Both the position numbers and the translations under genes were made by a program. Below, one piece after another: positions 2,573 to 35,814 of a stretch of 37,763 nt of DNA; position 1 is the stretch's first letter, and every line of letters begins with the position of its first letter. The notes beneath the pieces are model-generated. The model was not told the DNA's origin. It did no database searches and was given only the letters and a program-made list of their open reading frames with translations. Source of the stretch: a virus; IMG/VR virus record IMGVR_UViG_3300007276_000121, positions 1 through 37,763 of that record; one strand, 5' to 3'.

Positions 2573-3288
2573 TGGACGAATTTGAACAGTTCGAGGGCGG
2601 TGTCGCCGTCCACCTACCCGACGGGTCAACCCGCAACATTGCCACACCAGACGGTTTCACCGACACCGCGTTTCGCGGGACGCTCGCAGCGTTCCACACA
2701 GCCTACCTACGCAACGGTGTGATCCCTTCTGTCGGGGATGTGCATGAGCTGTGGCCGAAGCTGCCGAAGAAAACAATAAGCGGCGTAATGAGTACGCTAG
2801 AATTTCGAGAGGCTATACAACACAGAGGAATCCAATGGGACGCCAAAGACGGCCTCTCCATGGAACAACAAACCGTACTCCTTAAACTATCCGACCCATT
2901 CGACAGACGCGGCCTCGCATCCAAACTCAAAGACCTTACCGTCCCCATGGCACGATTCCAAGCCTGGCTCAAACAACCCCTCTTCAACAACCTCTACAAC
3001 CAACACACCAAAGCCAACTACGAAGAAGCACTCCCAGCGATCCGACAAAGACTCATCGGAAACGCAGAAGCCGGAGACCAACGAGCCATCGAACTCGTAT
3101 TCGCCATGACCGGAGAATGGAACCCCAACCAACAACACCTCGAAGACGCCCGCACTATTGTTTTGAAAGTAGTAGAGGCTATAATAAAACATGTCAAGGA
3201 CGTGAAGACGCGAGAAGCAATCCTATCGGACGTTTCAATGTATGCTGGTACTCTGGCGAGTATGAACCAGCAAAAGACCTTGGAGTAA
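2572..3288 (+). CDS. Probable terminase small subunit
   Basis: A 238-aa protein. The N-terminal part (about 28-110) is helical and could carry a DNA-binding HTH (residues 50-75, VIPSVGDVHELWPKLPKKTI). The central part (about 125-185) has the layout of phage small terminases or phBC6A51-like proteins: a long helix with FNNLYNQHTKANYEEALPAI, then a GDQRAIELVFAMTGEWNP segment. Small terminases bind the packaging site and load the large subunit. The assignment rests on this pattern alone, and the large terminase gene is over 6 kb downstream, which is unusual. Codon choice shifts strongly to C-ending codons between about 2820 and 3160 compared with both neighbours. Confidence 0.55.
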   Translation: MDEFEQFEGGVAVHLPDGSTRNIATPDGFTDTAFRGTLAAFHTAYLRNGVIPSVGDVHELWPKLPKKTISGVMSTLEFREAIQHRGIQWDAKDGLSMEQQTVLLKLSDPFDRRGLASKLKDLTVPMARFQAWLKQPLFNNLYNQHTKANYEEALPAIRQRLIGNAEAGDQRAIELVFAMTGEWNPNQQHLEDARTIVLKVVEAIIKHVKDVKTREAILSDVSMYAGTLASMNQQKTLE

Positions 3289-3291
3289 TAC

Positions 3292-4266
3292 ATGGCAACC
3301 AACACCACCAAACTCGGGCTAATCAAGCCGGATCTTACCGACGTTGTTGACGTAGGCAACCTCAACGACAACGCAGACGATATTGACGCTGCTGTCGGGT
3401 TTACTCTTTGTACTTCGGCAACCCGCCCGGCTACGCCCTGGGCTGGGCAAACAATTTTTGAGACGGATACGACAAGTAGTTTTGTGTGGGATGGTTCCGC
3501 ATGGCAATCTGCTGGCGGCGGTTCGGGTTCGATTACTGTTTCCGCTACAGCACCTGTGAGTCCTCCTCCAGCTAACGGGGATTTGTGGTGGGATTCTGAT
3601 AACGGAAACATGTACATCTATTACGATGATGGAGATAGCCAGCAGTGGGTTGCGGCTAATGGTCCTCAAGTGTTTGTTGGTGCTGCGGCTCCTGCCGGGT
3701 ATCAGGGTCAGATGTGGTTTGATTCGTCTACTGGCAAAATGTATGTTTTTTATGATGATGGGACTTCTTCGCAGTGGGTTTCTGCTATTGGTGGTTCTTT
3801 GGCGGGGAGTGTGTTGCAGGTTGTGTCTACAACTAAGACAGACACGTTTTCGACTACTAGCGGGACTTATGCCCAAGTGACTGACTTGGTTGTGAATATA
3901 ACACCTAGCTCAACAAGCAGTAAATTTTTGGTTATGGCCTCAGTGCCTAACTCCAGCGCTGGTGGCAGTTCGGGACAGCAGGCGATGCTGGCTGTTTATC
4001 GAGATTCTACTAATTTAATTGTTCCTGATTCTCCAGGTAGTCGCGCCCCCGCTTATGGCACTTTTGTGCGATTCGGAGATGTGGAACTCGAACCAGGTAG
4101 CTTTACTATTTTAGATTCTCCAGCTACGACTTCCACGCTTTCTTATTCGGTTTATTTTAAGTCCGGTGGTAGCACCGCTTACATTAATAGAAGCTCGGCA
4201 GATACTAATTCAAGCTCTTACCCTAGAGGTGTTGCGACTATTACAGTTATGGAGGTTGCAGGCTAA
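3292..4266 (+). CDS. Tail fibre / minor tail protein with tandem repeats
   Basis: A 324-aa protein. Its N-terminus (KLGLIKPDLTDVVDVGNLND, then a short helix) is the typical attachment segment of many phage fibres. Residues about 85-124 and 130-169 are two tandem copies of a module around GDLWWDSDNGNMYIYYDDG and GQMWFDSSTGKMYVFYDDG. The C-terminal 150 residues are Ser/Thr-rich, predicted beta-rich, and probably form the distal head. A GGAG site lies seven bases before the ATG. It opens the fibre block and shares a TAATG overlap with the assembly-chaperone gene at 4266. Confidence 0.75.
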   Translation: MATNTTKLGLIKPDLTDVVDVGNLNDNADDIDAAVGFTLCTSATRPATPWAGQTIFETDTTSSFVWDGSAWQSAGGGSGSITVSATAPVSPPPANGDLWWDSDNGNMYIYYDDGDSQQWVAANGPQVFVGAAAPAGYQGQMWFDSSTGKMYVFYDDGTSSQWVSAIGGSLAGSVLQVVSTTKTDTFSTTSGTYAQVTDLVVNITPSSTSSKFLVMASVPNSSAGGSSGQQAMLAVYRDSTNLIVPDSPGSRAPAYGTFVRFGDVELEPGSFTILDSPATTSTLSYSVYFKSGGSTAYINRSSADTNSSSYPRGVATITVMEVAG

Positions 4267-4529
4267 TGGATATTACACAAGTACTCACCCGCCGCTACGC
4301 AGGCGCAGAATGGACCCTCAACGGAGACAACTACACCGGACTCACCTGGCTATCTGACACACCCAAACCTAAGAAGGCAGAACTAGAAGCACTGTGGGAT
4401 GACGTACAAGCAGAAATCGCTGACGAAGCACAAGCCAAGATCGATGCTAAAGCTTCTGCGGTGGCTAAGTTGCAGGCTTTGGGTTTGACGGTTGATGAGG
4501 TGCAGGTTGCTTTTGGGTTGGGGGCGTAA
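4266..4529 (+). CDS. Tail fibre assembly chaperone-like protein
   Basis: An 87-aa protein whose N-terminus resembles small phage fibre assembly proteins: RRYAGAEWTLNGDNYTGLTW at residues 9-28. An acidic, Ala-rich helix follows (about 38-75) and then a LGLTVDEVQVAFG tail. Such proteins help fold or trimerise adjacent fibres, or form their tips. It sits between fibre genes and is translationally coupled to both (TAATG at 4266 and 4529). Codon style switches near 4445 from C-ending to T/G-ending codons. Confidence 0.65.
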   Translation: MDITQVLTRRYAGAEWTLNGDNYTGLTWLSDTPKPKKAELEALWDDVQAEIADEAQAKIDAKASAVAKLQALGLTVDEVQVAFGLGA

Positions 4530-5458
4530 TGACTGATATTGATTTTCCTGATAGTCCTACTGATGGGCAGTCTTTTGGTGCGTGGGCGTGGACGGCTGCC
4601 CGGTCTGTGTGGGATTGGAATGTTGTTGAGCTAATAAATATCCAGTACTTGGTTATTGCTGGCGGTGCTGGTGGTTCGTCAGGTGGTGGGGGTGCCGGTG
4701 GTTATCGTTCTAATGTTTCCGGTGAGTCGAGTGGTGGTGGCGCTTCCGCTGAGCCAGCCCTGAGTTTGCCTGTTGGCACTTACACGGTCACGATTGGCGC
4801 TGGTGGTGTTGGCGGCTCTGCAGATGTCGCTGGTGGGATTGTTGCCACGAGTGGTTCTTCGAGTCAATGTTCGGTGACTTCCATTGGTGGTGGTATCGGC
4901 TCAAGGGCTGGGGGTGGACCTTTCGCTGGGGTAGGTGGTTCTGGTGGTGGCGCTGCGGCTTCAACGAGTAACGAAAGCGGTGCGGCTGGTACAAGCGGTC
5001 AAGGTTACGCTGGTGGTGCGGCAAATGTTAACGGTGCGCCTTATTCGACTGGTGGTGGTGGTGGTGCTGGCGCTGTTGGTGAAACGCCAGTCACGGCTAA
5101 AGGCGGTAACGGTGGCGCTGGTGTCACTTCGTCCATTACGGGTTCGGCTGTAGGTCGCGCTGGCGGTGGTGGCGGTGGTGGTTATGTCAGCCCCGCTGTT
5201 GGTGGTACGGCTAGTGACGGTGGTGGGGGTGGTGGCACGGGGAATGGTACCGCTGGAACTGTTAACACTGGCGGTGGTGGCGGTGGTGGGCGTAGCGGTA
5301 ATACAGGCGGTGCTGGCGGTTCCGGTGTTGTCATACTCAAATATCCAGTCGCACGCAGCATTACGGCTGGTGTTGGTCTAACATCATCAACCACTACATC
5401 GGGTGACTTCAAAATAACCACGTTCACTGCTGGTACAGACACCATAACTTTCGCATAG
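4529..5458 (+). CDS. Glycine-rich tail fibre / adhesin, copy 1
   Basis: A 309-aa protein with a short N-terminal anchoring module (FPDSPTDGQSFGAWAWTAAR, residues 6-25), a YLVIAGGAGG strand and then about 200 residues dominated by Gly, Ser and Ala. The C-terminal module contains GGSGVVILKYP followed by GLTSSTTTSG and KITTFTAGTDTITF. Gly-rich adhesins of this sort, often built as polyglycine-II-like lattices, are the receptor-binding tips of several phages, so host recognition is likely. It is a clear paralogue of the next gene, sharing both end modules. Runs of GGT codons make it a good substrate for recombination. Confidence 0.75.
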   Translation: MTDIDFPDSPTDGQSFGAWAWTAARSVWDWNVVELINIQYLVIAGGAGGSSGGGGAGGYRSNVSGESSGGGASAEPALSLPVGTYTVTIGAGGVGGSADVAGGIVATSGSSSQCSVTSIGGGIGSRAGGGPFAGVGGSGGGAAASTSNESGAAGTSGQGYAGGAANVNGAPYSTGGGGGAGAVGETPVTAKGGNGGAGVTSSITGSAVGRAGGGGGGGYVSPAVGGTASDGGGGGGTGNGTAGTVNTGGGGGGGRSGNTGGAGGSGVVILKYPVARSITAGVGLTSSTTTSGDFKITTFTAGTDTITFA

Positions 5459-5468
5459 GAGACATAAC

Positions 5469-6389
5469 ATGCCATTAGATTTTCCTGCTGCCCCCACTGA
5501 TGGGGATATTTATAACCGGTATAAGTGGAATTCTACTGATACGGTATGGAATTTGAATTTGCCTGAGTATGTTCCGGTTTATTCTTTTGAGTATTTGGTT
5601 GTTGCTGGCGGTGGCGGGGGCTTGGGGTTTAGCCGTACTGACCGTGGTGCGGGTGGCGGCGGTGCAGGTGGCTACCGTTCAAGTGTCACTGGCGAGTCGT
5701 CTGGTGGTGGCGCTTCGGCTGAAACCGCATTGAGTTTATCGGCTGGTACTTATACGGTTACGGTTGGTGCTGGTGGTGCGGGCACTAGCGGTACTGGAGC
5801 TTCGGGGGTCAACGGCGCTGACAGTGTTTTTGGTTCTGTAACCTCTTTGGGTGGCGGTGCCTCAGAGTATCCGGACGGGCTGTCAGGTGGGTCAGGTGGT
5901 GGTGCAAACCACGCAGGCTCGGGCGGGGCAGGAACTTCGGGGCAGGGTTACGGTGCCGGTGACGGTTACGCCTCAGTTCCCTACAACGGGACGGGTGGTG
6001 GTGGTGCGGGTGCCGCATCAGCTAACGCAACATCCTCAACGGCAACGGATGGTGGTGTTGGCGTTCAATCTTCTATCACGGGCTCGGCAACGTATCGCGC
6101 TGGTGGCGGTGGCGGTTACGGCGGTTCGGGTGTTGCGTATGGTGGGCTTGGCGGTGGCGCGGATTCGTCTGCTTCTGCGGCCAACGACGGAACGGTAAAC
6201 ACGGGCGGCGGTGGCGGGGCTTCTGGCGGCTCGGCTGGTGGTGCTGGCGGTTCAGGTGTTGTCATCCTCAAATACCCTGCAGCAGCATCTCTCGACATTG
6301 GTGCAGGCTTAACCTCATCCACAACAACTTCCGGCGCATACAAAATAACCACATTCACCGCCGGTACCGATACAATTACAGTGATTTAG
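5469..6389 (+). CDS. Glycine-rich tail fibre / adhesin, copy 2
   Basis: A 306-aa paralogue of the preceding gene, started by an AGGAG site. It shares the N-terminal FPAAPTDGDIYNRYKWNS segment, a YLVVAGGGGG strand, the GGGGAGGYRSSVTGESSGGG region and the C-terminal GVVILKYP plus KITTFTAGTDTIT module. The Gly-rich middle differs in length and sequence between copies, as expected for diversifying receptor-binding tips. Both proteins could form hetero-oligomeric fibres or offer alternative specificities; the sequence does not decide. Confidence 0.75.
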   Translation: MPLDFPAAPTDGDIYNRYKWNSTDTVWNLNLPEYVPVYSFEYLVVAGGGGGLGFSRTDRGAGGGGAGGYRSSVTGESSGGGASAETALSLSAGTYTVTVGAGGAGTSGTGASGVNGADSVFGSVTSLGGGASEYPDGLSGGSGGGANHAGSGGAGTSGQGYGAGDGYASVPYNGTGGGGAGAASANATSSTATDGGVGVQSSITGSATYRAGGGGGYGGSGVAYGGLGGGADSSASAANDGTVNTGGGGGASGGSAGGAGGSGVVILKYPAAASLDIGAGLTSSTTTSGAYKITTFTAGTDTITVI

Positions 6390-7871: not shown

Positions 7872-8606
7872 ATGAAGATACTTTTATTAGACCTTGAAAC
7901 ATCACCAAACATGGCTTATGTGTGGGGTCTATGGAATCAAAACATTTCTATAGGTCAAATGATTAGTTCCACTGAAGTTATCTGTTTTGGTGCTCGTTGG
8001 TACGGGCAACGTAAAGTACACTTTAGCTCAGTTCACCATGATGGCAAAACTGACATGCTTAAAGCTATACATGAGCTTTTAGATGAGGCTGATGCGGTGG
8101 TTGGTTGGAACAGTGCGGGCTTTGATGTGAAGCATTTGTACCGTGAATTTATTGAAAATGACATGCTTCCGCCGTCTCCGCATAAGGAGATTGATTTGAT
8201 GCGTGTCGCTAAGCAGCGGTTTCGTTTTCCTTCTAACAAGTTGGATTATGTTGCCCAAAAGTTGGGTATGGGTGCGAAGGTTAAGCACAGCGGGTTTGAG
8301 CTGTGGATTAAATGTCTTGCGGGTGAGGATAAAGCTTGGCGTGAGATGAAGAAATACCAGATTCAGGATGTGAACCTTCTTGTCGGCTTGTACGAAAAGT
8401 TTTTGCCTTGGGTTAAGAATCACCCAAACCGGGCCATTATTGATGGTAAACCTGAGGGGTGTGTCGCTTGCGGTTCTGAGCATTTACAGTCGAGGGGTAC
8501 AGAGACGACAGGTTCGGGTATGTTCCGTAGGTTCCAGTGTCAAGATTGTGGCAAATGGCAGCGTGGTTCTAAAAGTGAGGCTACTAGTACAATGAGAGCT
8601 ATTTAG
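7872..8606 (+). CDS. RNase H-like DEDDy 3'-5' exonuclease with C-terminal zinc ribbon
   Basis: A 244-aa protein. Residues 1-180 show the DnaQ/RNase H exonuclease layout: LLLDLETSPN with Asp7 and Glu9, GWNSAGFD with Asp85, then a Tyr162-x3-Asp166 pair (YQIQD) typical of the DEDDy type. A zinc ribbon follows with Cys197-x2-Cys200 and Cys223-x2-Cys226. Such proteins are expected to trim DNA or RNA 3' ends. It is the first gene after the lysis terminator and lies just before the terminase genes, far from the leftward replication module, so a role in packaging, repair of ends or host DNA turnover should be considered. Confidence 0.8.
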   Translation: MKILLLDLETSPNMAYVWGLWNQNISIGQMISSTEVICFGARWYGQRKVHFSSVHHDGKTDMLKAIHELLDEADAVVGWNSAGFDVKHLYREFIENDMLPPSPHKEIDLMRVAKQRFRFPSNKLDYVAQKLGMGAKVKHSGFELWIKCLAGEDKAWREMKKYQIQDVNLLVGLYEKFLPWVKNHPNRAIIDGKPEGCVACGSEHLQSRGTETTGSGMFRRFQCQDCGKWQRGSKSEATSTMRAI

Positions 8607-8615
8607 GAGATAACT

Positions 8616-8921
8616 ATGGCTATGTTGTCGGAGAATGAGTCTGGATCTTTTGGGGCTGACGAGAACCCGAAACCTCCTGCCCAAGCTGTGGAGGATTTTC
8701 ATACAAATAGTGATGTGGATGCTCGTGCAGAGGCGCAGCATCACACTTTGGGTCCTAACCCTAACCAGGCTTCTCCCGGCGATCATACGCATGATGGTGG
8801 TGACTCTGCTTTTATTCTTGAAGGGGAGGTTATTAGTGGTTCTAGGGCTTCGGATGCGTGGCGTTTGTCGGTTAATGCTATTCTTGTTCGTCTTGGGGCC
8901 ACGGATAACTCTACGGCCTGA
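8616..8921 (+). CDS. Hypothetical protein with HHTLG...DHTHDGGDS motif
   Basis: A 101-aa protein with an AGGAG site. Residues 1-40 are acidic and polar. A His-rich segment follows (HHTLGPNPNQASPGDHTHDG, about 42-61), which resembles the short His-Gly motifs of phage virion and fibre proteins that can bind metal. The last 35 residues could form a helix. The stop overlaps the large terminase start (TGATG at 8919-8923), so the two are translationally coupled. It could be a minor virion protein or a packaging partner; a small terminase role cannot be excluded from position alone. Confidence 0.6.
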   Translation: MAMLSENESGSFGADENPKPPAQAVEDFHTNSDVDARAEAQHHTLGPNPNQASPGDHTHDGGDSAFILEGEVISGSRASDAWRLSVNAILVRLGATDNSTA

Positions 8922-10504
8922 TGCCCGCTAAACAACGACAGCCTTCAGCGGCGGAGCTTTTGCAGCTTGCCGTTGCTGAGCTTGACCAGAGTATTCATCA
9001 GCCGAATATCCTTAATTATGGGGAGAAGGATTATCCGGAGCAGTTGCGGTTTCATAAATCTAATCAAAGAGGGCGTTTTATTTCTGGAGGTAACCGTGGA
9101 GGAAAAACCGACGCTGAAGTCGTTGAGTCTGTATGGTGGGCTACAAATAGCCATCCATTTCTTAAACGCCCACCTTCATGGGGGTCTGGACCTATCCAGC
9201 TTAGGTTTGTTGTTGTAGACGTTGCTAAGGGTATTGAGCAGATTATTTTGCCTAAAATGAAGAGGTGGATACCACGCTCATATCTGAAGGATGGTGATTG
9301 GTCTAAGAGTTGGGATGCAACCAACTACATTCTGACGTTCGATAACGGGTCAACGATTGATTTTGTTACCTGGGGTATGGACATGATGAAATTGGGTGGG
9401 GTTCCTCGTCACGGGATTTTCTTTGATGAGGAGCCTCCTCAGAACATTTTTAATGAGTCGATGATGCGTCTGATTGACTACAACGGTTTTTGGGTGATTG
9501 CGGCTACCCCAACTAAGGGTATGGGTTGGACGTTTGATTTGTTGTGGGAGCCTGCTCAGGAGGGCAAGGTTGATTGGATTGACACGTTTACCCTGTCGGC
9601 TGAGCAAAACCCGTACATTCAGGCGGATTCGGCTGACATGGATTTTTATATGGTGGGCATGAATAAGGAAGAGAGGGATATTCGTGAAAAAGGTAGCTTT
9701 GTTGCTCGCAGTGGTTTGGTGTTTCCTGATTTTAATCAAAATCTTGAACAGTATCTTGTAGATTTTGGTCCGGGGGACATCCCGAAAGGTTGGGCTATTT
9801 ATGCATCTGTCGATCATGGGTTGAATAACCCTACGGCGTGGTTGTGGCATGCAGTGTCACCTAGTGGGGATATTGTGACTTTTGCGGAGCATTACCAGTC
9901 AAACATGATTGTGTCGGAGCATGCGCAGCTTGTGAAGCAACGGGAGTTGTCCTGGGGCCGTAAACCTGACTCTATAGAGCGTATGGGCGACCCTGCGATG
10001 CGACAACGGTCTGGGATAACCGGAACATCCATTATTCAGGAATATGCCCTCCACGGGGTGTACGTGAACGTTGAGGGCATACCCCACGATGTGATGGTTG
10101 GTATTGAAAAAATGCAAGCCTATTTCAGATTGCGTGACGACACCCGTTGGGGCAAAAATCGGCCTAAGTGGGTTATTTCTCGTAACTGCGCCAACTTTAT
10201 TCGTGAGATGAAGAAACTACGTTGGGGTTCTTACAGTTCCGACAAGATGGCATATGAGATGAATAAGCAAGAAGTTGTCCACAAAAAAGACGACCACGCT
10301 TTCGACAGTGCCCGCTATTTTGCTACAACTCGACCAGATTTGAAACCTTTTGTTGAGGCAAAAGGTGACGAAGACCCTCCGACTACGCTAAGATACGAGG
10401 ACTTGCTTTTAAAAATGCGAGAAGACCCCAACGTCGAATTCGCAGAAGACAAAGCAGACAGTAACGGAACTACCGTTATTGCAGGATATGGAGATTACTA
10501 CTAA
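8921..10504 (+). CDS. terL: Terminase large subunit (ATPase and nuclease)
   Basis: A 527-aa packaging motor. The ATPase half has a Walker A-like SGGNRGGKTD (55-64), a Walker B with catalytic Glu HGIFFDEE (164-171) and a coupling motif AATPTKG (194-200). The RNase H-fold nuclease half has SVDHG with Asp298, MGDP with Asp357 and a C-terminal KKDDHAFDSARY (455-466) that supplies the last acidic ligands. The enzyme translocates DNA into the procapsid through the portal and cuts the concatemer. It is coupled to the gene before it (TGATG) and to the next (TAATG at 10502-10506). Length and motif order are normal for the family. Confidence 0.95.
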   Translation: MPAKQRQPSAAELLQLAVAELDQSIHQPNILNYGEKDYPEQLRFHKSNQRGRFISGGNRGGKTDAEVVESVWWATNSHPFLKRPPSWGSGPIQLRFVVVDVAKGIEQIILPKMKRWIPRSYLKDGDWSKSWDATNYILTFDNGSTIDFVTWGMDMMKLGGVPRHGIFFDEEPPQNIFNESMMRLIDYNGFWVIAATPTKGMGWTFDLLWEPAQEGKVDWIDTFTLSAEQNPYIQADSADMDFYMVGMNKEERDIREKGSFVARSGLVFPDFNQNLEQYLVDFGPGDIPKGWAIYASVDHGLNNPTAWLWHAVSPSGDIVTFAEHYQSNMIVSEHAQLVKQRELSWGRKPDSIERMGDPAMRQRSGITGTSIIQEYALHGVYVNVEGIPHDVMVGIEKMQAYFRLRDDTRWGKNRPKWVISRNCANFIREMKKLRWGSYSSDKMAYEMNKQEVVHKKDDHAFDSARYFATTRPDLKPFVEAKGDEDPPTTLRYEDLLLKMREDPNVEFAEDKADSNGTTVIAGYGDYY

Positions 10505-11031
10505 TGAGCAGATTCTTCCTGACCGACGCCCCCGCACTACAGCCAGGCGTCTGCTGGATCACTAAAACAGGTAAAGGACCATTCGTAGACACAGGAATTG
10601 ACCTGTCTAAGAATGTTGTAGACCGTGGACGCATGTATCTGTCGGTAGACGTAATTAGAGAAATGGCTCAGTTGGCTGGGCTATTTGACGAAAAGACACC
10701 CGTTTCTGTTGAACTACACGAAAAAGAAATATACGACAGAGGCTACAACGACGCAATTAAGGAGATTAACTCGGATGCTATCAACCATTTTGTTAGCCAC
10801 GTTAGTAGGAACACTGTTGGCGCTGCTGGTGTTGCAGCACTGGTGGAACCAGCAAGCACTCACACAGCTGCTGGAGCAGCAATCGCAGGTGTTGAAGACG
10901 CAACAGCAGGAACACCAGAAGTCGATAAAGACATTGACGGAGTTGAACGCAAAAGCGCAAGCACTGGTGGCGTCAAGCGACCCGCTAGTGTATCAACAAA
11001 TTCAAGCGATGAATCAAACTTTAGATTATAG
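10504..11031 (+). CDS. Conserved hypothetical protein whose 3' half overlaps the next gene
   Basis: From the ATG that shares TAATG with terL the frame runs 175 codons. Residues 1-90 look like a normal folded protein (CWITKTGKGPFVDTGIDLSK; RGRMYLSVDVIREMAQLAGL). Residues 91-175 are Ala/Thr/Ser/Val-rich and low-complexity, and they overlap in another frame the membrane/coiled-coil gene that starts at 10775. The C-terminal part is either a true overprinted extension, or the open frame is a by-product of the Gln-rich coding in the other frame. A single-base error in the assembly could also create this. Position between terL and portal suggests a packaging or head-morphogenesis role; function unknown. 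Confidence 0.65.
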   Translation: MSRFFLTDAPALQPGVCWITKTGKGPFVDTGIDLSKNVVDRGRMYLSVDVIREMAQLAGLFDEKTPVSVELHEKEIYDRGYNDAIKEINSDAINHFVSHVSRNTVGAAGVAALVEPASTHTAAGAAIAGVEDATAGTPEVDKDIDGVERKSASTGGVKRPASVSTNSSDESNFRL

Positions 11032-11188
11032 TGGTTACCAGGACTATGACCCTTCCGACGAGGCTGAATCTGAGAGAATTGCCACTAGGAACCCCAACCT
11101 TGCAGCAGGAGACGATTTAGATGGCCGAGATGCCCGACAGTTATTCGCAGAACTCACCGGGGTTGACCCAGAATTCTACGGTAATTAA
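10775..11188 (+). CDS. Membrane-anchored coiled-coil protein overlapping its neighbours
   Basis: A 137-aa protein: one N-terminal membrane helix (residues 3-21, STILLATLVGTLLALLVLQ), a WW pair, then a Gln/Leu-rich coiled coil (about 26-66) and an acidic tail (DYDPSDEAESE). AAGGAG (10759-10764) lies 10 bases before the ATG and is inside the upstream gene. An upstream ATG at 10685 in the same frame has no RBS and would add 30 residues that read as a shifted version of the upstream protein. It overlaps the portal gene by 68 bases at its end. The topology resembles Rz-like spanins or small inner-membrane phage proteins, but it is not in the lysis cassette; function unknown. Confidence 0.7.
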   Translation: MLSTILLATLVGTLLALLVLQHWWNQQALTQLLEQQSQVLKTQQQEHQKSIKTLTELNAKAQALVASSDPLVYQQIQAMNQTLDYSGYQDYDPSDEAESERIATRNPNLAAGDDLDGRDARQLFAELTGVDPEFYGN

Positions 11189-13292
11189 ATTACCTGAAGA
11201 CGGGTTAAACATTGAGAAATATCGTGAAAGCGAGGAAGCACGCAAGCTAGTTGCTTGGGTACAGTCTGAATGGACCAAAGCTAAAACTGCTCGTAGTCAA
11301 AAGCAGTTGCAGTGGTTCCATAACATGTCAATGTTTTACGGGCATCACTGGGTTGAGCAGACTCGTGGTAACTTCCCTGAAGATTATCGAGACAAACTGT
11401 TTACGCCCCGTAAACCGTATTATCACCAACGCAAAACCATTAACCGTATTCGGTCTTATGTGCGGTGGGAAATGTCGAAAATGCTTTCGTCGTTCCCCAC
11501 CGCTCAGGCCATCCCCGCTTCCAGTGAGGACCAGGACCAACGAGCTGCTTTTGCTGCGGAACAAGCATGGACTTCAATTAGTGATGCTAAAAAGTTGCGT
11601 CAGCATCTGTCGCGTACTACCTGGTGGACGATTGTTACCGGCAACGGGTTTCTTAAAACCCATTGGGATGATACTTGTGTTGATAAAGTCTCTGGACAAA
11701 AAGGTGACATCAAATATGGTCACGTGACACCTTTTCACCTTTTCGTTCCCGACATCCGCGAACAGGACATTGAAGATCAGCCGTTTGTTATTAACGCTTA
11801 CACGAAACCTGTCGCATGGGCGCAGTATTACTTTGCTAAAGAACTTGGTGATATTGAGTTGACTCCCAGTGTTTCAAGCGCCAACCAGATTCTTGACGAA
11901 GCTTACCTAAACTTGGGGCACAGTAAAGCGCCGGACAGCGTTATTGTGTACGAAACTTGGGTTAAACCAGGTGCTACCAAAATGATGCCGCAGGGTGGTG
12001 TCATTATTAGCATTGATGACATTCTTATCAACGTGTACCGTGACGGATTCCCTTACGGTCACGGAATGTACCCCTTCACCAAGTTTGAGCACATCCCCAC
12101 CGCCACGTTCTACGCGGATAGCCCCATTGTGGACCTGTCGCAACTGCAAAAAGAATACAACGGGTTGCGTTCAGAGATTGCTGAAGCTGGTCGCCGTATG
12201 GCTAAACCTCAACTGATTGCCCCAATGGGTTCTATTGTTCCATCTAAGCTGACGAACGAACCCGGTTTGGTCATCCAGTACAAGCCAGGTATGGCACCGC
12301 CTCAACCGTTGCCCCTGTCGCCACTGCCCCAGTATTACTTGGACCAGCAGGACCGTGTGTTGAATGACTGGATTGATATTTCTGGGGAACGTGAAGTGTC
12401 TCGCGGATCCACGCCTCCTGGAGTTACTTCGGGTACAGCTATCTCGTATTTGCAGGAAGCATCCAACCAATACTTGACTCCTCAGTTCCAAAGCATTGAG
12501 GCTGGTGTGGAAAAGATTGCTACACAAACTATCGAATTGTTTGTGCAGTATGTTGACTTGCCCCGCAAGATTCGTACTATTGGTGCCGATGGTGCTTTCG
12601 ACACAATGCTTTTGAAGGGTGCCGATGTTGCTTCGGGTACTGACATTCGCATCGAACCTGGTTCGTCTTACGCAAAATCTAAGGCCGCTCAGGAAGCCCG
12701 TGTAATGGACATGTTCTCTGTCGGTATCATTGACCAGCCAGCTGCGGCTCGTATGCTGGAAATTGGTGGCGTGCAAAAGATTATGGACACTTTGAATGTT
12801 GCGGAACGTAAAGCTCAGCGTGAAAACATTAAGATGAAGATGCTGACTGTAGAAGATATTGACACGGCTCGTATGGAAGCAATGGATCAGATTATGACCC
12901 AGCTACCTCCGGAGGCTATGCAGAACGAGCAGATTATGCAGGAAATTCAGAACATGCCAGCTCCGCTCATTGTCTCTGTCGATGATTTTGACGTTCACGA
13001 AGTACATGTGGAAACTCACAACAAGTTCCGCATGTCACAAGAATACGAAATTCTCCCTGATGAAATTAAAGCTCAGTTTGAAGAACACGTTGCTGCCCAC
13101 GAACAAGCTATTCAACAAAAACAGTTACAACAGTTCTTACAAATGATCCCCGGTGACGGCACAGAAGCTGGTGGTCCTCCTATGGGCGGGGACAGCATGG
13201 AGGTGCCTATCGGTGGTCCTGAAATGGGCCCAGGTGCTATGATGGCTCCTAATGGGGCTGTACCCGACATGGCCCCTGATCAAGGAGCATAA
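11121..13292 (+). CDS. Portal protein
   Basis: A 723-aa protein with the layout of P22-type portals: an N-terminal helical clip and wing (residues 15-120), an aromatic-rich core, then LSQLQKEYNGLRSEIAEAGR (about 338-357) and the segment SGEREVSRGSTPPGVTSGTA (about 425-444), which is typical of portals of short-tailed phages. The C-terminal 80 residues are Gln- then Met/Gly/Pro-rich and may form a barrel-like extension or a disordered tail. Twelve copies form the channel for packaging and ejection. AGGAG (11107-11111) sits nine bases before the ATG. The length is at the large end for portals and agrees with a podovirus. Confidence 0.9.
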   Translation: MAEMPDSYSQNSPGLTQNSTVIKLPEDGLNIEKYRESEEARKLVAWVQSEWTKAKTARSQKQLQWFHNMSMFYGHHWVEQTRGNFPEDYRDKLFTPRKPYYHQRKTINRIRSYVRWEMSKMLSSFPTAQAIPASSEDQDQRAAFAAEQAWTSISDAKKLRQHLSRTTWWTIVTGNGFLKTHWDDTCVDKVSGQKGDIKYGHVTPFHLFVPDIREQDIEDQPFVINAYTKPVAWAQYYFAKELGDIELTPSVSSANQILDEAYLNLGHSKAPDSVIVYETWVKPGATKMMPQGGVIISIDDILINVYRDGFPYGHGMYPFTKFEHIPTATFYADSPIVDLSQLQKEYNGLRSEIAEAGRRMAKPQLIAPMGSIVPSKLTNEPGLVIQYKPGMAPPQPLPLSPLPQYYLDQQDRVLNDWIDISGEREVSRGSTPPGVTSGTAISYLQEASNQYLTPQFQSIEAGVEKIATQTIELFVQYVDLPRKIRTIGADGAFDTMLLKGADVASGTDIRIEPGSSYAKSKAAQEARVMDMFSVGIIDQPAAARMLEIGGVQKIMDTLNVAERKAQRENIKMKMLTVEDIDTARMEAMDQIMTQLPPEAMQNEQIMQEIQNMPAPLIVSVDDFDVHEVHVETHNKFRMSQEYEILPDEIKAQFEEHVAAHEQAIQQKQLQQFLQMIPGDGTEAGGPPMGGDSMEVPIGGPEMGPGAMMAPNGAVPDMAPDQGA

Positions 13293-14460: not shown

Positions 14461-15681
14461 ATGGCTGCAACACTCGCAACTATTGATTCATATCTCAAGG
14501 AGGTGTACCAGGGACGCATCCGCGAGCAGCTTAACGACGAAATCGTTGCGCTGAAGCGTATTACTCGCAGTGGCTCTGGTGTCACCAACGAAGTTGGCGG
14601 AAAGTACGTCACCTTCCCAATTCACACCCGCCGTAACAGTGGTATCGGTTCTCGTTTCGAGTCCGAAGCACTGCCTACGCCTGGTCAGCAGGGTCACGCC
14701 GCTGCCCGTGTGGGTCTGAAGTACGCATACGGTGGAGTTCAGCTCACCGGACAGGCAATCAGCCTTTCTGATTCCGACGCTAAGGCTTTTGCCAAGGCTT
14801 TGGACAACGAGGTTGAGGGTCTGAAGAACGACCTCAAGAAAGACATGAACCGTCAGGTGTACGGCTCGGGTAACGGTGCCATTGGTGTCGCTACTGGTGC
14901 TAACACTGGTGCTGTCGTTCCTGTCGCAGATGCACGTCTGTTCCAGGTTGGTATGGTCGTTGACACTCAGACGGGTACCACTGTTGACAACACCGGACTG
15001 GTTGTTGCTTCGGTGAGCCTCGCTACTGGCGCAAACACCGTTACGTTCACGACCACCCCAGGTACCGCACTTGCCTCTGCTGACATCATTGTCCGCAAGG
15101 GTTCTGGTGTTGCTGCTGCTGGTAACCGTGAACTCACTGGTCTCGCTGCAATTATCAGCGCTTCTGGCACCCTTTACAACATCGATCCTTCGGCGGAGCC
15201 TGAGTGGAAAGCTAACGTTGATTCCAACGGTGGCACCAACCGCGCACTGTCGGAAGCTTTGATGATTCAGATGACTGATGACATCCGCACCAAGGGTGGC
15301 TCCACGTCTCTGATTCTTCAGAGTCTCGGTGTTCGTCGTGCGTACTTCAACCTGTTGTCGCAGTTGCGTCAGACCGTTAACACCCAGGAATTTACTGGTG
15401 GTTTCTCTGGTCTTGCGTTCACCACTGACCGTGGCGAAATCCCTGTGGTTGCAGATGTTGACGCACCGCTGAACAAGCAGTGGTACATCAACGAAGACGC
15501 TCTCACGTATTACCGTGACGAGGACTGGCACTTCATTGACCGTGATGGGTCGATGTGGAAGCAGGTTCGTGACTCCAACGGTGACTACGACGCATACTAC
15601 GCTCGCATGGTTGAATACCACGAGCTTGGTACTGACCGTCGTAACACTCACGGTTTGGTGTCTGACATCACCGAGGCCTAA
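14461..15681 (+). CDS. Major capsid protein (HK97 fold)
   Basis: A 406-aa protein, first after the scaffold gene. Its codons are the most uniform and C/G-ending of the window, as in a highly expressed gene. It has an N-terminal helix (YLKEVYQGRIREQLNDEIVA), an E-loop-like region (VTFPIHTRRNSGIGSRFESE, about 50-69), a long spine helix (about 105-130, DNEVEGLKNDLKKDMNRQVY) and a beta-rich P domain to the C-terminus (YYARMVEYHELGTDRR). These fit HK97-fold capsid proteins of aquatic podoviruses. An AAAGGAAAC site precedes the ATG. A classical terminator follows, which would limit expression of downstream genes relative to this one. Confidence 0.9.
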   Translation: MAATLATIDSYLKEVYQGRIREQLNDEIVALKRITRSGSGVTNEVGGKYVTFPIHTRRNSGIGSRFESEALPTPGQQGHAAARVGLKYAYGGVQLTGQAISLSDSDAKAFAKALDNEVEGLKNDLKKDMNRQVYGSGNGAIGVATGANTGAVVPVADARLFQVGMVVDTQTGTTVDNTGLVVASVSLATGANTVTFTTTPGTALASADIIVRKGSGVAAAGNRELTGLAAIISASGTLYNIDPSAEPEWKANVDSNGGTNRALSEALMIQMTDDIRTKGGSTSLILQSLGVRRAYFNLLSQLRQTVNTQEFTGGFSGLAFTTDRGEIPVVADVDAPLNKQWYINEDALTYYRDEDWHFIDRDGSMWKQVRDSNGDYDAYYARMVEYHELGTDRRNTHGLVSDITEA

Positions 15682-28990: not shown

Positions 28991-30768
28991 TTCCCGTCCT
29001 CCTGAGGAACCCAGTGATCTACCTCGACTGCAAATCGAACATCAAAGTCAATGTCACCTGTTACGGCATTTACATTTTCCATTGTTGTTCGTATCTTCTC
29101 CATGTATTGGGGTACTACTGATTCCTTAACCTCAAATGTAATGGAGTCGTGGACTTGAAGCAACATTCGACATTCAGGTCCTTCTAATTCCTGGAAACAC
29201 TTGACCATGATACGTTCCACAATGTCCGCTGCCCCACCTTGGATGAGGCTGTTCATGGCTTTGTATGCATCGTTGCGGTGTTCAAAATGTCGATCCCTGC
29301 CTGACCAAATACGTATTTTGCCGGTCTCTTCAACTTTGGCTGTGCAACGTTCGTTTAATCTACGAAAGTTTGGGTAAGTGCTGAAATAGTTTTGCCTAAT
29401 TTCTTTTGACTCTAACCTGTTAACCCCAAAAGCGTTCATTAGCCGCTGCTCGCCTGCACCGTATTGCATGGAGTAGACAAGTGTTTTTGTGTCGTGACGG
29501 GACATGCCTAATTGCTTGGACATTTCAGTGAAGATGTCACGTCCCTCGTTGAATACCTCTTTGAGTTCTTCTTCCCCAGCGTAGGCTGTTGCGAGGCGTA
29601 GTTCGAGCTGCGAGAAGTCGGCGTTGATAAGTACAAAGCCATCTTCCGCTATAAAACATTCTTTAACTTTACCGTTCCACGGTTTGTCGGATGACTTAGG
29701 AATTTGCTGCAAGTTGGGTTCGGCACACGAAAGACGCCCCGTAGCAGTCCCGTGGAGGCGATAACTACACCTTAGGCGACCATCTACATCAACCAGCTCA
29801 AGATAGGGCCTGTACGCGGCGCTGACGGCTTTCTGCCACCCCCTGAACTCTTTTATTTGCCGAGCAGCAGGGTTTTCAAGCTTTTCCAGCATCGAATCAT
29901 ACGCTAACATGGCCTCTTTGTCGAAACTAGGGGCACCAGTAAGTTTGCTATTCTTCACAACCGGCAACCCAAGATCATCAATAAGCAATTTTTTCATTTG
30001 CTTAGGACTTGCAGGATTAATTCCCAGCTCTTTCTGTAGTTTATCCATTTGAATTTCGCCCTTTTGTACATACTCCTGGGCAAGTTGTACATCAATACGT
30101 ACACCTGTACGTTTCATCGACAAAAGGACCCGAACCAAATTCTGCTTGTGAGGCCAAATTTCGTCCGGCAAATCTTCCCACTGGCGCGTGATGCGCAACA
30201 CGCCCCACAAACGCCACGTCAGCTCCGCATCCACGACAGCATAAGGCCACATCTGTTCCCACGTTGTCTCGGGCCACCCAATCTTTTTTTGTTTTTCTAA
30301 AAACGGATCTTTATGTTTTCCTGAATCTTTCAAGTAGTACTGTGCTAACGAATCTAATCCCTTGTTGTATGGTTTGTTTTCGTTGATGAGGTGAGCCACA
30401 GTAGGCACATCAATAAAGTTTGTGTGCTCAACAAAGATCCCAATAGTTTCTAACGAAAGAATGTCGTACTGTGCGTTGCAGAACACTAAAGTATGGTCAC
30501 CCTCCAACAAATCCTTTAGTAGTGTGTATACGTCATTCCCACAGTTTTCACCTGTCTGGTGATGGAAAGGAAAATAATGACTGTAAGGTGTTCCGTCTAC
30601 GACGGTAGCGATGCTGACACCGATACATTTGTCTTCGCCATTAGCAACACTGAGGCCGGTAGTTTCAGTGTCGACAGCGATAACTAGGTTAGGTTCCCCT
30701 AACTTAGTTAAGAGAGCCAGGCTGCCTTCGTTAATGTCGTTAAATTGCAAGGTCGTTGTCCTTTGCAA
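28987..30768 (-). CDS. polA: Family A DNA polymerase with 3'-5' exonuclease domain
   Basis: A 593-aa replicative polymerase of the Pol I/T7 type without a 5' nuclease domain. The exonuclease domain has DTETTG (33-38), NAQYD (98-102) and YAVVDA (176-181). The polymerase domain has the TATGRLSCAEPNLQQIP block (341-357), motif A ADFSQLELRLA (383-393, Asp384), motif B RHDTKTLVYSMQYG (424-437) and motif C QVHDS (538-542). At the position equivalent to E. coli Phe762 it has Tyr432, as in T7. Its N-terminus overlaps the helicase gene by 29 bases, indicating co-translation. It would copy the genome with the primase and helicase encoded just upstream. Confidence 0.95.
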   Translation of the reverse strand: MQRTTTLQFNDINEGSLALLTKLGEPNLVIAVDTETTGLSVANGEDKCIGVSIATVVDGTPYSHYFPFHHQTGENCGNDVYTLLKDLLEGDHTLVFCNAQYDILSLETIGIFVEHTNFIDVPTVAHLINENKPYNKGLDSLAQYYLKDSGKHKDPFLEKQKKIGWPETTWEQMWPYAVVDAELTWRLWGVLRITRQWEDLPDEIWPHKQNLVRVLLSMKRTGVRIDVQLAQEYVQKGEIQMDKLQKELGINPASPKQMKKLLIDDLGLPVVKNSKLTGAPSFDKEAMLAYDSMLEKLENPAARQIKEFRGWQKAVSAAYRPYLELVDVDGRLRCSYRLHGTATGRLSCAEPNLQQIPKSSDKPWNGKVKECFIAEDGFVLINADFSQLELRLATAYAGEEELKEVFNEGRDIFTEMSKQLGMSRHDTKTLVYSMQYGAGEQRLMNAFGVNRLESKEIRQNYFSTYPNFRRLNERCTAKVEETGKIRIWSGRDRHFEHRNDAYKAMNSLIQGGAADIVERIMVKCFQELEGPECRMLLQVHDSITFEVKESVVPQYMEKIRTTMENVNAVTGDIDFDVRFAVEVDHWVPQEDGK

Positions 30769-31978
30769 ACTGGTTAAAGACGTTGCCCAGATCAGTAGTA
30801 AAACTTAGGTTCTCTGGATTTCTGGTTATAGTAAACGGCTCGAACGTAGGCCCAAGCCTGTTCTTCAAGGTGTCTACTTGCAGCAGGTTTCCTTCAACAA
30901 CTTTGAGGGATAGCACAAAGTCAACGTCTGTCGTGATGTAAGTCGAGCCGTACACGTCCGACAGTTCAACACCCTTTTTCTGCCCATCGTTAGCCTTCTT
31001 GCGGTTGTGGTGGATCATCAGCATCGAACACGAGTACTTACTGCGTACCACCGACAGGTAATGAATAAGGTTTTTTACTGCCTGCTCGTCGGTCAGTTCT
31101 TTGGAGCTAATCTTTTGTAACGAATCGATAACGAGGATGTCTGGCATGTAATCATTCATTATCTGATCAAAGAAGATCTGACCCTCCGGGCTATCCAAGT
31201 TGATGGGAGTACCAAACGGTGCAACCAAAAAGTTGCGGTTCAGTGTGTTCTTGTCGGGGTAAGCCTGCCCAATCGTCGCCATAAAATGATTCAACGGAGC
31301 AGCTGACATCTCCAACGACAGAAACATAACCTTCTTACTACCGGCAACGTTGTCCCAGGTAAGAAACTTCTTCTCCCCTAAAGCCATGTGAGCGGCGAGG
31401 GCGATAGAAAGCTGTGTCTTACCTGTACCTGGGTAGCCTGTGATCAAACCGAAGCCCCCCTGGGCTAGGAGCCCGCTGAGTATCCACTCAATCTTAAACT
31501 CAGCCTCAACAAAATCCTGGTAACCATAAATAAGTTTCGACTCCCCCATCACAGGTGCCGTCTGGTTAGCAGAATTGATCATCTTAGTCAGATCGATGTT
31601 GTCTAAAGAGTTGTAACCATGCTTCTGTCGAGCCCTATTGACAAAATCTGTGACACGACGCTCACGGTCACGACGATTCTTATACTTACCCCAACGATCA
31701 TCAGCATCGTAAAGGACAGTACCTATCTGGGCATCCGTCCAACCCATCTCAGCCCCGAGATGCGCCAACTCCGACATAGCAGCCGAACGATCCCTTTTAG
31801 GTGGCCCCTGAAAGTATTTGGCATCCCTACCAAACTTCTCCATAATCTCGGGGGTCCACTTAGCTAATGTTCTAACATCCTCCAGCGAGGGTAAATCTCC
31901 TAGCAGTAAGTCAGTGCTAACAATCTTTCGAGCCGATGGTACTTGAGCAAAGTCTTCAATGCTATATTTTGCGGTCAC
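30740..31978 (-). CDS. RepA/DnaB-like AAA helicase
   Basis: A 412-aa protein from a GTG start that shares GTGA with the stop of the WhiB gene. Residues 45-120 form a small helical domain of the type found C-terminal to primases (KYFQGPPKRDRSAAMSELAH, then a basic DRERRVTDFVNRARQKHGY). The RecA-fold ATPase follows, with Walker A GYPGTGKTQ (181-189), Walker B DILVIDS (280-286) and a sensor-like LMIHHNRKK (320-328). This matches RepA-type hexameric helicases of phages and plasmids, often fused to an AEP primase; here the primase is a separate gene two positions upstream. It would unwind DNA for the polymerase. Confidence 0.85.
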   Translation of the reverse strand: MTAKYSIEDFAQVPSARKIVSTDLLLGDLPSLEDVRTLAKWTPEIMEKFGRDAKYFQGPPKRDRSAAMSELAHLGAEMGWTDAQIGTVLYDADDRWGKYKNRRDRERRVTDFVNRARQKHGYNSLDNIDLTKMINSANQTAPVMGESKLIYGYQDFVEAEFKIEWILSGLLAQGGFGLITGYPGTGKTQLSIALAAHMALGEKKFLTWDNVAGSKKVMFLSLEMSAAPLNHFMATIGQAYPDKNTLNRNFLVAPFGTPINLDSPEGQIFFDQIMNDYMPDILVIDSLQKISSKELTDEQAVKNLIHYLSVVRSKYSCSMLMIHHNRKKANDGQKKGVELSDVYGSTYITTDVDFVLSLKVVEGNLLQVDTLKNRLGPTFEPFTITRNPENLSFTTDLGNVFNQFAKDNDLAI

Positions 31979-32256
31979 CTTATCGCCTTCCTACTAAGCA
32001 GCTTGCGCTCGTTATAGGTAAGGCCGCCCCATATGCCTTGAGACTCATTAGCCTCCAACGCATACTCTAAACACTTAAATTTAATTGGGCAGTCATCGCA
32101 CAGTTTCTTTGAGTTTCTTATCTTCTCTCGGCCCAAAGTATCTTGCTCGTCAATAAAAAACATGTCAGGTGCGTTCTCGCAAGGAGAACCACCAATAGTT
32201 GATAAGTCTCTTGTTATCTCAGCGTATAGTTCAAATGATCTTTTTGTCTGTTGCAT
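31975..32256 (-). CDS. WhiB-family iron-sulphur transcriptional regulator
   Basis: A 93-aa protein with the four conserved cysteines Cys26, Cys53, Cys56 and Cys62 (SPCENAP; KKLCDDCPIKFKCLEYAL) that bind a 4Fe-4S cluster, and the GIWGG turn (74-78) before a basic C-terminus (NERKLLSRKAIR). The family acts with the principal sigma factor of Actinobacteria; in mycobacteriophage TM4 a phage WhiB represses a host whiB gene and affects superinfection. The ATG at 32256 is chosen (GAGGAC upstream); a GTG at 32274 would include that site. It lies between primase and helicase genes, overlapping both. Confidence 0.9.
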   Translation of the reverse strand: MQQTKRSFELYAEITRDLSTIGGSPCENAPDMFFIDEQDTLGREKIRNSKKLCDDCPIKFKCLEYALEANESQGIWGGLTYNERKLLSRKAIR

Positions 32257-32836
32257 AATCTTCTTCGTCCTCACGGTCCCAGTTTTTAATAATCACAGGC
32301 ATATTGCGTTTGTGATTAGTAGTACGAATTGGTCTGAGTATTTGATCCGCATCCCAGCCAGACGTATCCGCGTGCATTACATAAGCAATAGCCCTGTTTC
32401 TATCTTCCAGCACTTCAATGTTGTCAATAAACTTATCAAGCTTCCAATAGCAGTGCTCATGCTTTTCTATTGAAGACTGCACAATCAAAGTAGGAGGAGG
32501 CACCCAGATCTGTCCCTCTAAGGCCTCCTGAGGCCACTCCTCCGGCGCGTTACCGTCAAAGTCAACCCACAGCACATGGCTACCCAGCACGTTCTCTTTA
32601 GCAGGATTAGCCGCCTTGAATAACGCAGGAGAATAAAACACGTTCGCCTTAATAGCTGACCACTTAAGGGTGTGTCGTATCACACCTTCTCGCTGCCTCG
32701 GCCAAGCAAACATGTATGGTGTCCACTTACCTTCATGCTCGACAGGCAAATAAACAAACGTGGGATCGGATACTGTTTCGTCCTTACCCCACATGTAATT
32801 GTAAAAATCTCTTAGCTCTTTAGTCGCGTCTTCCAT
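32231..32836 (-). CDS. AEP-type DNA primase (RepB-like prim-pol)
   Basis: A 201-aa protein with the three marks of archaeo-eukaryotic primases: the metal-binding pair Asp92-x-Asp94 in HVLWVDFDGNAPEEW, His128 in EKHEHCYWKL, and the basic segment DQILRPIRTTNHKR (164-177). The N-terminal 80 residues carry a YMFAWPRQREGVIRHTLKW stretch of unknown role. It is shorter than fused primase-helicases because the ATPase lies in a separate gene. It has an AAGGACG site before the ATG and a long hairpin just upstream. It would make primers at the replication fork. Confidence 0.8.
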   Translation of the reverse strand: MEDATKELRDFYNYMWGKDETVSDPTFVYLPVEHEGKWTPYMFAWPRQREGVIRHTLKWSAIKANVFYSPALFKAANPAKENVLGSHVLWVDFDGNAPEEWPQEALEGQIWVPPPTLIVQSSIEKHEHCYWKLDKFIDNIEVLEDRNRAIAYVMHADTSGWDADQILRPIRTTNHKRNMPVIIKNWDREDEEDYATDKKII

Positions 32837-34329: not shown

Positions 34330-35243
34330 TTTGTTTCCTTATCTGGCGACGCTACAAATTGTTTGCGTTCGCGTATCTTGTACTCAGTTTTCTTCATCAG
34401 TTCAACGTTGCCGCCAACTAACTCTGTGGAACAAATGTCCCGGAACGAGCAGGACTGGCACACCATCTTGTTGGCTGTGCGGTAGGCCCGCTTCTCTTGA
34501 TCTTCAATGCTTAGTTCTTTCAATGCTTGTATCTCAGCTGCCACCCCAAGCTGCTCCATGAACGTGTTTAGTACACGATCAGTGTTTGGCTTGAGGATCA
34601 TGTAGTAGCTCATCGAATCCGATGTGGGTTCTTTAAGCTTCCTTGTACGTAGCATGTTGTAGGCACCGTAACTTATTTCATACTTGAGTGCTCGCAACGC
34701 GCCGATGTACTTAGGAATCTGTGGTTGTAGGTCTGTTTGCTCTGGTGTGTAAAAGTCGTACACAAACTTGTGATCTACAACAACGAAAGCACCACTAGGG
34801 TCTTGGACAATGAGGTCCACAACAAACGGGTAAGCGCTTTCAGTTTCTTCGTCATACACCAAACTAAACTCTTGCTCTACAGCCATGATTCTCCATCCGT
34901 TACGGACAAGGAATTCGTTTTCAAAGTAACCCCAGTCTTCGTGGAAAAGAATGTCGTGCAGCGTAGCCCTACGATCAGCATCTTTGTAGCCTTCAGCAAT
35001 AATCTCTTCGTACCTAGCTTTGGCCGCATCTAACGCAGTATCAAAAGCTTGGAGTTGCTCTTGAGGAGTTTCACCGTTATTGATGATTGTTCCGTAAAAC
35101 GTCTCCAATACCGCGTGACCTGCTGTACCTGTCGCCAGGCTTGCGCTTTTGTTTACACGCTCCAGGCTAAGCCCGTAGCCATAGTAATGCTTCCTACGAC
35201 AGAGCAGGTAGTTGTCTACTTCTGAATGGCTGACACTAGGCAT
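34326..35243 (-). CDS. Cas4/RecB-like PD-(D/E)XK nuclease with four-cysteine cluster
   Basis: A 305-aa protein from the ATG at 35243. The N-terminal VSHSEVDNYLLCRRKHYYGY supplies Cys15. GTAGHAVLE (39-47) gives the first motif, FVVDLIVQD with Asp143 and VVVDHKF with Asp157-x-Lys159 form the PD-(D/E)XK centre, and QPQIPKY (173-179) the QxxxY motif. Three further cysteines (Cys262, Cys265, Cys271; VCQSCSFRDIC) would complete a 4Fe-4S cluster with Cys15, as in AddB and Cas4. It probably resects DNA ends for the Sak4-like ATPase. Alternative starts at 35252 or a TTG at 35279 are possible; a GGACGG site favours one of the two ATGs. No CRISPR array or other cas gene is present. Confidence 0.85.
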   Translation of the reverse strand: MPSVSHSEVDNYLLCRRKHYYGYGLSLERVNKSASLATGTAGHAVLETFYGTIINNGETPQEQLQAFDTALDAAKARYEEIIAEGYKDADRRATLHDILFHEDWGYFENEFLVRNGWRIMAVEQEFSLVYDEETESAYPFVVDLIVQDPSGAFVVVDHKFVYDFYTPEQTDLQPQIPKYIGALRALKYEISYGAYNMLRTRKLKEPTSDSMSYYMILKPNTDRVLNTFMEQLGVAAEIQALKELSIEDQEKRAYRTANKMVCQSCSFRDICSTELVGGNVELMKKTEYKIRERKQFVASPDKETK

Positions 35244-35814
35244 CGAGCGCATCCGTCCTGTTGCTGTAGCTGTACTCAAGTTCTTGCACTAGCTCGGCAT
35301 AACGACAGAACAAATCAAATGTGTCTGTTACATCATCCAAAGCTCTGTGTACTGTTGGGCGCTGCTTCTCTCCGTAAGAATAAAAACCTTGCGAATCAAA
35401 AAACATTTTTAATGTGCTGACGTCCATGTGCCTGTGGCTGAGCTTACGATCAAGGCGTGGCATCCAATTACGGATGAATCCGTGATCGAAGTGAACACTT
35501 GCCCCAGCTAGGGTAAGCAATCCCTCGGGGTAATGTTTGTTGATGTCTTCAAGTATTTGATCTTCAGCATCTTCAACCATTATTGTGCCAAAAGACTCCA
35601 TGTCTTTCAGCAAATCGTTTTCAGTGTGCATTGTCTGCACAAACAAATCCTGCTGCATCAGCTCCCAAGCAACTTTGTCAGGAGTAATGAGCACAGATTG
35701 TGCGTCAGTTACATGAACATGGTGCTCTGAAAGGAACCAGCCAACTTCAATAATGCGATCATTGTCTGGGTCTAATCCAGTTGTTTCAAGGTCAATCCAT
35801 AAATACATTTTCAT
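35236..35814 (-). CDS. Oligoribonuclease-like DEDDh exonuclease
   Basis: A 192-aa protein close in length and layout to bacterial oligoribonuclease. The DEDDh residues are visible: Asp8 and Glu10 in LWIDLETTGLDPDNDRIIEV, Asp110 in AGASVHFDHGFIRNWMPRLD, then His156 and Asp161 in TVHRALDDVTDTF. The family degrades two- to five-base RNA, the last step of mRNA turnover, which would recycle nucleotides; DNA proofreading is another option. ATG 35814 is used; ATG 35808 is equally compatible with the AAAGGACG site (35817-35824). A TTGACA promoter lies directly upstream, so it may start a new transcription unit. Confidence 0.85.
   Translation of the reverse strand: MKMYLWIDLETTGLDPDNDRIIEVGWFLSEHHVHVTDAQSVLITPDKVAWELMQQDLFVQTMHTENDLLKDMESFGTIMVEDAEDQILEDINKHYPEGLLTLAGASVHFDHGFIRNWMPRLDRKLSHRHMDVSTLKMFFDSQGFYSYGEKQRPTVHRALDDVTDTFDLFCRYAELVQELEYSYSNRTDALDA

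Follow-up and report, generated by a model that had tools for sequence, protein, structure and literature searches.

The window, meaning the whole 37,763-base virus record that was analysed, carries structural genes arranged much as in the Arthrobacter podovirus Jasmine. Between the genes for the large terminase subunit (TerL) and the portal protein are two open reading frames, designated A and B, which share 257 nt in different frames (Table 1). A first-pass annotation of the same DNA had read one frame as open from 10504 to 11031, and a second, with its own AAGGAG and an ATG at 10775, as running to 11188; the ORFs confirm both.

Table 1. Features of the TerL-portal region and of the structural genes that follow it. 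Positions are those of the window.
Feature	Position	Strand	Basis and remarks
TerL, terminase large subunit	8921..10504	+	PHROG_2, E=1.3e-20; 50% identity to Shocker terminase
TerL stop / gene A start			TAATG; 1 nt common to stop TAA and ATG
Gene A, 175 aa	10504..11031	+	ORF; ATG 10504 to TAG 11029-11031, open throughout; homologues in Shocker, DS1
Gene B RBS (AAGGAG), within gene A	10759..10764	+	Sequence; 10 nt before ATG
Gene B, 137 aa, probable small membrane protein, +1 frame of A	10775..11188	+	ORF; 80 related IMG/VR loci
A/B overlap, 257 nt, both frames very probably coding	10775..11031	+	Conserved offset, null simulations, stop avoidance
Predicted transmembrane helix of B, residues 2-20	10778..10834	+	Mean Kyte-Doolittle 2.49 over 19 residues
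Predicted coiled-coil-like helix of B, residues 21-68, Gln-rich	10835..10978	+	AlphaFold helix 2-68
Conserved motif of B, SSDPLVYQQIQAM, residues 67-79	10973..11011	+	Alignments
Gene A stop (TAG)	11029..11031	+	Last base of B Tyr85 (TAT) and first two of Ser86 (AGT); invariant
Portal RBS (AGGAG), within gene B	11107..11111	+	Sequence
Portal gene	11121..13292	+	PHROG_156, E=1.1e-37; ORF
Gene in scaffold position			3' of portal, before major capsid protein gene
Major capsid protein	14461-15681		

Gene B begins 271 nt after the start of gene A, and its last 68 nt are in turn the first 68 nt of the portal gene, again with a +1 shift: A, B, and portal use each of the three frames successively, which leaves 89 of the 414 nt of gene B single-coding. 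The B frame of the window extends, open, as far upstream as TTG 10685; most homologues, however, close it with a stop within a few codons 5' of the ATG, and ATG 10775 is therefore taken as the start. Scans for promoters and terminators gave no signal above chance.

Several other features of the window were recorded in passing. A primase/helicase gene on the minus strand is seemingly split, into 30740-31978 and 32231-32836 (PHROG_3123 positions 184-545 and 13-171), with a 99-aa ORF (31975-32274) between the parts; Jasmine has one 621-aa gene. Two adjacent genes (4529-5458 and 5469-6389) align to a common stretch of PHROG_2295 (about 572-879), and are likely a tandem duplication. There are two genes of the DNA polymerase exonuclease-subunit type (7872-8606, PHROG_403, and 35236-35814, PHROG_192). 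Antisense to the major capsid gene is a 387-codon open frame (14488-15651, minus strand), possibly a matter of composition.

For the gene A product, AlphaFold, with low confidence overall, gives an N-terminal strand/helix domain (approximately residues 1-60) and a helix at residues 67-103. The tail (104-175) is probably disordered; its very low model confidence fits this. It is low-complexity and lies opposite the coiled-coil-like helix of B (residues 21-68), much as the first reading had described. Conserved motifs are found in the N-terminal domain (GPFxDTG and REMA) and, by alignment, at the end of the protein (KRPxxVSxxSSDES); the N-terminus has no hydrophobic signal in its sequence. No convincing family was found for the window's gene A in Pfam or PHROGs, nor a convincing match among PDB sequences. 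An alignment of diverse A proteins contained no segment of sufficient conservation to search with. A fold search with the low-confidence model likewise yielded no PDB match, the only matches being a 175-aa protein of the length found in the Cellulosimicrobium phage DS1, the A protein of Microbacterium phage Shocker, and unnamed phage proteins. The A homologues of DS1, L170, and MW202795 contain two CxxC pairs that have been lost from the window's clade: when the window's gene A was checked for a zinc ribbon both pairs were absent, with a single Cys left. The MW202795 homologue (L101, Manatee Spring virus; 2725-3255) is itself unannotated, and is also located between TerL and portal. An ORF overlapping it (3107-3391) is in the right place for B, but has no homology to B and was not counted.

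For gene B, the proposed membrane helix plus coiled coil was borne out by prediction: AlphaFold models residues 2-68 as one long helix, the first part with high confidence. After the helix come the conserved motifs DPLxYQQIQAM and YDPSDExE, and the bases encoding residues 67-79 read, in frame A, as part of its conserved end. B probably crosses the membrane once, leaving its C-terminus and conserved motif in the cytoplasm. According to the positive-inside rule, the basic flank of a membrane segment stays cytoplasmic; in distant members of the family the N-terminus is acidic and the membrane segment is followed by basic residues, and by the rule this would put the motifs inside. In the window's own B, the flanks of the segment are nearly neutral. 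As for A, neither Pfam nor PHROGs provided a convincing family for the window's B, and a B profile matched no PDB chain at E<=1. A scan of a genome collection with the B alignment gave 76 pattern matches and no relatives, so that no prophage or bacterial copy of B was found. B seems to form a gene family that has yet to be named. In one subgroup (L039, with B at 3269-3655, and also L040 and L041), stops near the C-terminus, in the portal-overlapping part, shorten B to 128 aa.

Searches of IMG/VR yielded 44, 58, and 80 loci. Ninety copies were extracted, 38 of them distinct; 36 of these form the main group, which includes near-identical sequences. The offset between A and B is 271 nt in the extracted copies. 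Both frames are open through the overlap (and A throughout) in all 36 distinct sequences, among which the lowest identity is 54% for A and about 51% for B. The AGGAG, the ATG of B, and the TAG of A are invariant in 36/36, the last of these even though TAC would be silent in B. The Glu codon within the B ribosome-binding site is GAG in 36/36, though the phage prefers GAA (208 v 157). Tyr85 of B, at the A stop, is TAT in 36/36, while TAC encodes Tyr88 in 32/36 and Tyr91 in 21/36. In a comparison of Jasmine and Casserole, 36 of 117 A third positions have changed in single-coding DNA, and 0 of 109 in the overlap.

Constraint on the two frames is unequal. Codon phases were compared by counts of changes per site only; these are 2.3, 1.4, and 3.7 for B positions 1, 2, and 3 in the overlap, and in single-coding DNA 5.1 for A third positions and 4.1 for B third positions. 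By these counts B is the stricter frame in the overlap. Purifying selection on the A-tail amino acids is weak compared to that on B, so some of the conservation seen in the tail is passive. Simulations were run along the tree to the observed divergence, with the window's own sequence (255 nt) as the start and 200 runs for each setting. With constraint on B only, A was open in all 36 tips in 0/200 runs with either codon usage; the mean was 10.5 of 36 tips, or 20 when the overlap's own codon usage was applied. The observed A identity (0.543) was attained in 0 and 1 of 200 of these runs. With constraint on A only, B was open in all 36 in 0/200 runs. Both single-frame nulls are thus rejected: each frame is constrained beyond the demands of the other. 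Nor does the B protein force the A frame to be open, since lineages without the long tail have from one to four A-frame stops each in this part, A's own included.

For single sequences, the B amino acids were held fixed and synonymous codons redrawn from the phage's own usage. For the window, frame A came through open in 1.2% of draws, close to the chance of about 2% given in the first-pass annotation for an open frame; the figure was 0.02% for Jasmine and 0.5% for DS1, and 0.1-1.4% for other sequences of the window's clade, with 5.5% in the GC-rich L166. For frame A to acquire a stop, a B codon must have T as its last base and be followed by AA, AG, or GA. Within the overlap, such a T occurs in 0/272 B codons, compared to 335/1558 for third-position T at other sites of the overlap and, 3' of the A stop, 187/517 in front of these dinucleotides; the zero itself follows from A being open, and it is the contrast with the other positions that carries the weight. 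T is third in approximately 46% of T-permitting codons in this phage, whether or not such a dinucleotide follows. A weaker test, in which only the codons present in the overlap were permuted, left A open in 29% of cases for the window alone. This is not significant because the overlap is already T-poor, and T poverty is itself part of the signal. Codon-usage correlations are 0.54 for the A tail and 0.49 for B in the overlap, and favour neither frame as the older. It is the comparative evidence, rather than the single-sequence test, that is decisive for a real overlap.

In every related phage with a recognisable B, both genes are between TerL and portal, with B in the same relative +1 frame; the overlap is therefore old. 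This place and frame are found in eight further lineages known from metagenomes (L164, L166-L170, L172, and L173), in Shocker and DS1, and in the Jasmine group, with overlaps of 80-332 nt. By hhalign, B is homologous to that of Jasmine at E=3.7e-11 and that of DS1 at 7e-11, and A to that of Jasmine at E=1.4e-6 and that of MW202795 at 1.5e-7. In a tree of TerL plus portal, one clade unites the window's clade with L164 and L166, all with long overlaps (>=230 nt), and a sister clade of short overlaps (80-107 nt) includes Shocker, L167-L169, L172, and L173; the latter has one to three A-frame stops, its own included, where the long clade is open. The L170 overlap is short (116 nt), and Jasmine and DS1 return to long ones. 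On this tree the overlap length must have changed at least three times, or twice if MW202795 is left out; the deep branches of the tree are long and unsure. The first-pass annotation had considered that A homologues stopping near residue 90 would speak against a shared region, and none as short was found: the shortest end at residues 114-126, which is 80-116 nt inside B. The overlap is therefore general, and the long A tail clade-specific. As read from these sequences, the core overlap is old and the A tail variable in length between clades.

Among isolated phages, Jasmine, Brad, Adat, and Casserole (Jasminevirus, Arthrobacter podoviruses) resemble the window in having A and B between TerL and portal, in a similar gene order. 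The A protein of Jasmine (gp13) is 226 aa long and the unannotated B of the group about 151 aa, in the +1 frame, with 329-332 nt of overlap; they differ from the window in a portal identity of 35% and in an extra gene, gp12, after TerL. Shocker has its A and B (gp18/gp19) in the same place and frame, with A of 125 aa and B, from its own ATG, of 116 aa, overlapping by 95 nt. Its A tail is short, unlike that of the window, and gp19 as annotated begins 33 codons later, after the membrane helix of B. In DS1, A has 175 aa and an unannotated B 132 aa, overlapping by 254 nt in the same frame, and A differs from that of the window in its CxxC...CxxC zinc-ribbon-like pattern. Records for Jasmine, Brad, Adat, Casserole, and DS1 have no gene at B. 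Jasmine gene numbers run from 1 to 58 with only 14 missing, exactly at B (KU160650.1, L182, between 7333 and 7429); the record contains 57 genes, and the Jasmine paper tabulates 58 (PMC5513430). B may once have been called there as gene 14. The head-packaging gene lists of these five phages and of Shocker are thus incomplete.

The conservation, the selection on both frames, and the common architecture are computed results, and in all likelihood the A/B overlap is genuine, conserved dual coding, with both frames under purifying selection. The first-pass annotation had listed overprinting, a programmed shift joining the two frames, and a one-base assembly error as possible explanations, and only overprinting has held up, both frames being kept in independent assemblies and both departing from the single-frame nulls. 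An improbable variant is that within the overlap B alone is genuine, A ending functionally near residue 90-115 and its long tail being a passive by-product of Gln-rich, T-poor B codons. The phase pattern, with B as the stricter frame, would suit this, as would the low complexity and very low model confidence of the A tail, its absence from the sister clade, and the 29% obtained for the window by codon permutation within the overlap. However, no simulation with constraint on B only kept A open in all 36 sequences, whichever codon usage was applied, and the observed A identity exceeds that of 199-200 of 200 runs; the A stop is invariant despite the silent alternative; T is missing only where it would create a stop in A; and the same suppression is seen independently in the Jasmine group.

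A programmed +1 frameshift joining A and B into one fusion protein is very improbable. The frames do overlap and are collinear, but in every case B is equipped with a ribosome-binding site and start codon of its own, B-frame stops come directly before that start in most homologues, and the stop of A never varies. There is no common slippery site: AAAAAAC or AAAAAAT is present in one subclade only, and is of the -1 kind, where a +1 shift would be needed. A sequencing or assembly error, with a one-base indel splitting a single gene, can be practically dismissed: no support for it was found, and the same arrangement recurs in independent metagenome contigs and in the genomes of Jasmine, Brad, Adat, Casserole, DS1, and Shocker.

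If the overlap is indeed dual coding, A and B would be two distinct podovirus late genes sharing these 257 nt. A would be translated from its TAATG junction with TerL, and B initiated within A, on the same messenger, from its own AAGGAG and ATG; the portal would be initiated within B in like manner. In several lineages, that of the window included, the A frame closes at a later stop, which has given A, by gain or retention, a probably disordered tail over the membrane/coil region of B. That both proteins are made we infer from sequence, as we do the topology and function of B. Its position between TerL and portal suggests, tentatively, a tethering role at the membrane during head assembly or packaging. 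A role as a virion or ejection protein is conceivable but rather doubtful, and the remaining probability goes to other roles. It is also rather doubtful that B represents a new membrane family in the head-packaging operon of actinobacterial podoviruses, tethering the portal or packaging motor to the cell membrane, with the A tail coevolving as the other half of a functional pair.

Gene overlaps longer than 50 nt are frequent among annotated genomes of dsDNA viruses, 61% of which have at least one (PMC7017920), and disorder in one of the products is a recognised easing of the double constraint (PMC8227390). The kind of overlap described here is already known; what appears to be new, as far as the searches reach, is this particular pair, the depth of the overlap, and the hidden gene. 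Long out-of-frame overlaps in tailed phages have seldom been documented with selection tests on both frames and persistence across genera. The differences in A tail length between clades provide a natural series in which an overprinted extension has been gained, lost, and constrained.

Two known systems bear comparison. The Rz/Rz1 spanin pairs of tailed phages are same-strand, out-of-frame overlaps involving a small membrane/coiled-coil protein, and in this they are like A/B. That B is itself an Rz-like spanin, a lysis protein displaced into the head operon, is nonetheless highly unlikely. It does have the membrane helix and coiled coil, and a weak match to PHROG_89 (E=0.0048 in the window, with 3/26 family members below 0.01). 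Sequence does not place it in a spanin family, the best PHROG_89 E being about 0.005 and no Pfam match lying above its cut-off. The isolated relatives infect Gram-positive actinobacteria, which lack an outer membrane that a spanin could fuse; A/B is not beside lysis genes, the lysins and holin of Jasmine being elsewhere (genes 22, 30, and 31); and the charges of distant B members favour a coil on the inside, opposite to the spanin topology, with the window's own flanks nearly uncharged. Nor does the other frame provide the lipoprotein partner, with signal peptide and lipobox, that Rz has in Rz1, A having no N-terminal hydrophobic signal and being modelled as a strand/helix domain.

The p16.7 protein of phi29 has a membrane helix plus a coiled coil. 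It is like B in this and in being a small phage protein located at the membrane, and unlike B it is the product of an early replication gene; no homology was detected between them, p16.7 structures being in the PDB and no PDB chain matching B at E<=1. The role of p16.7 is to organise phage DNA processes at the membrane (PMC11476376).
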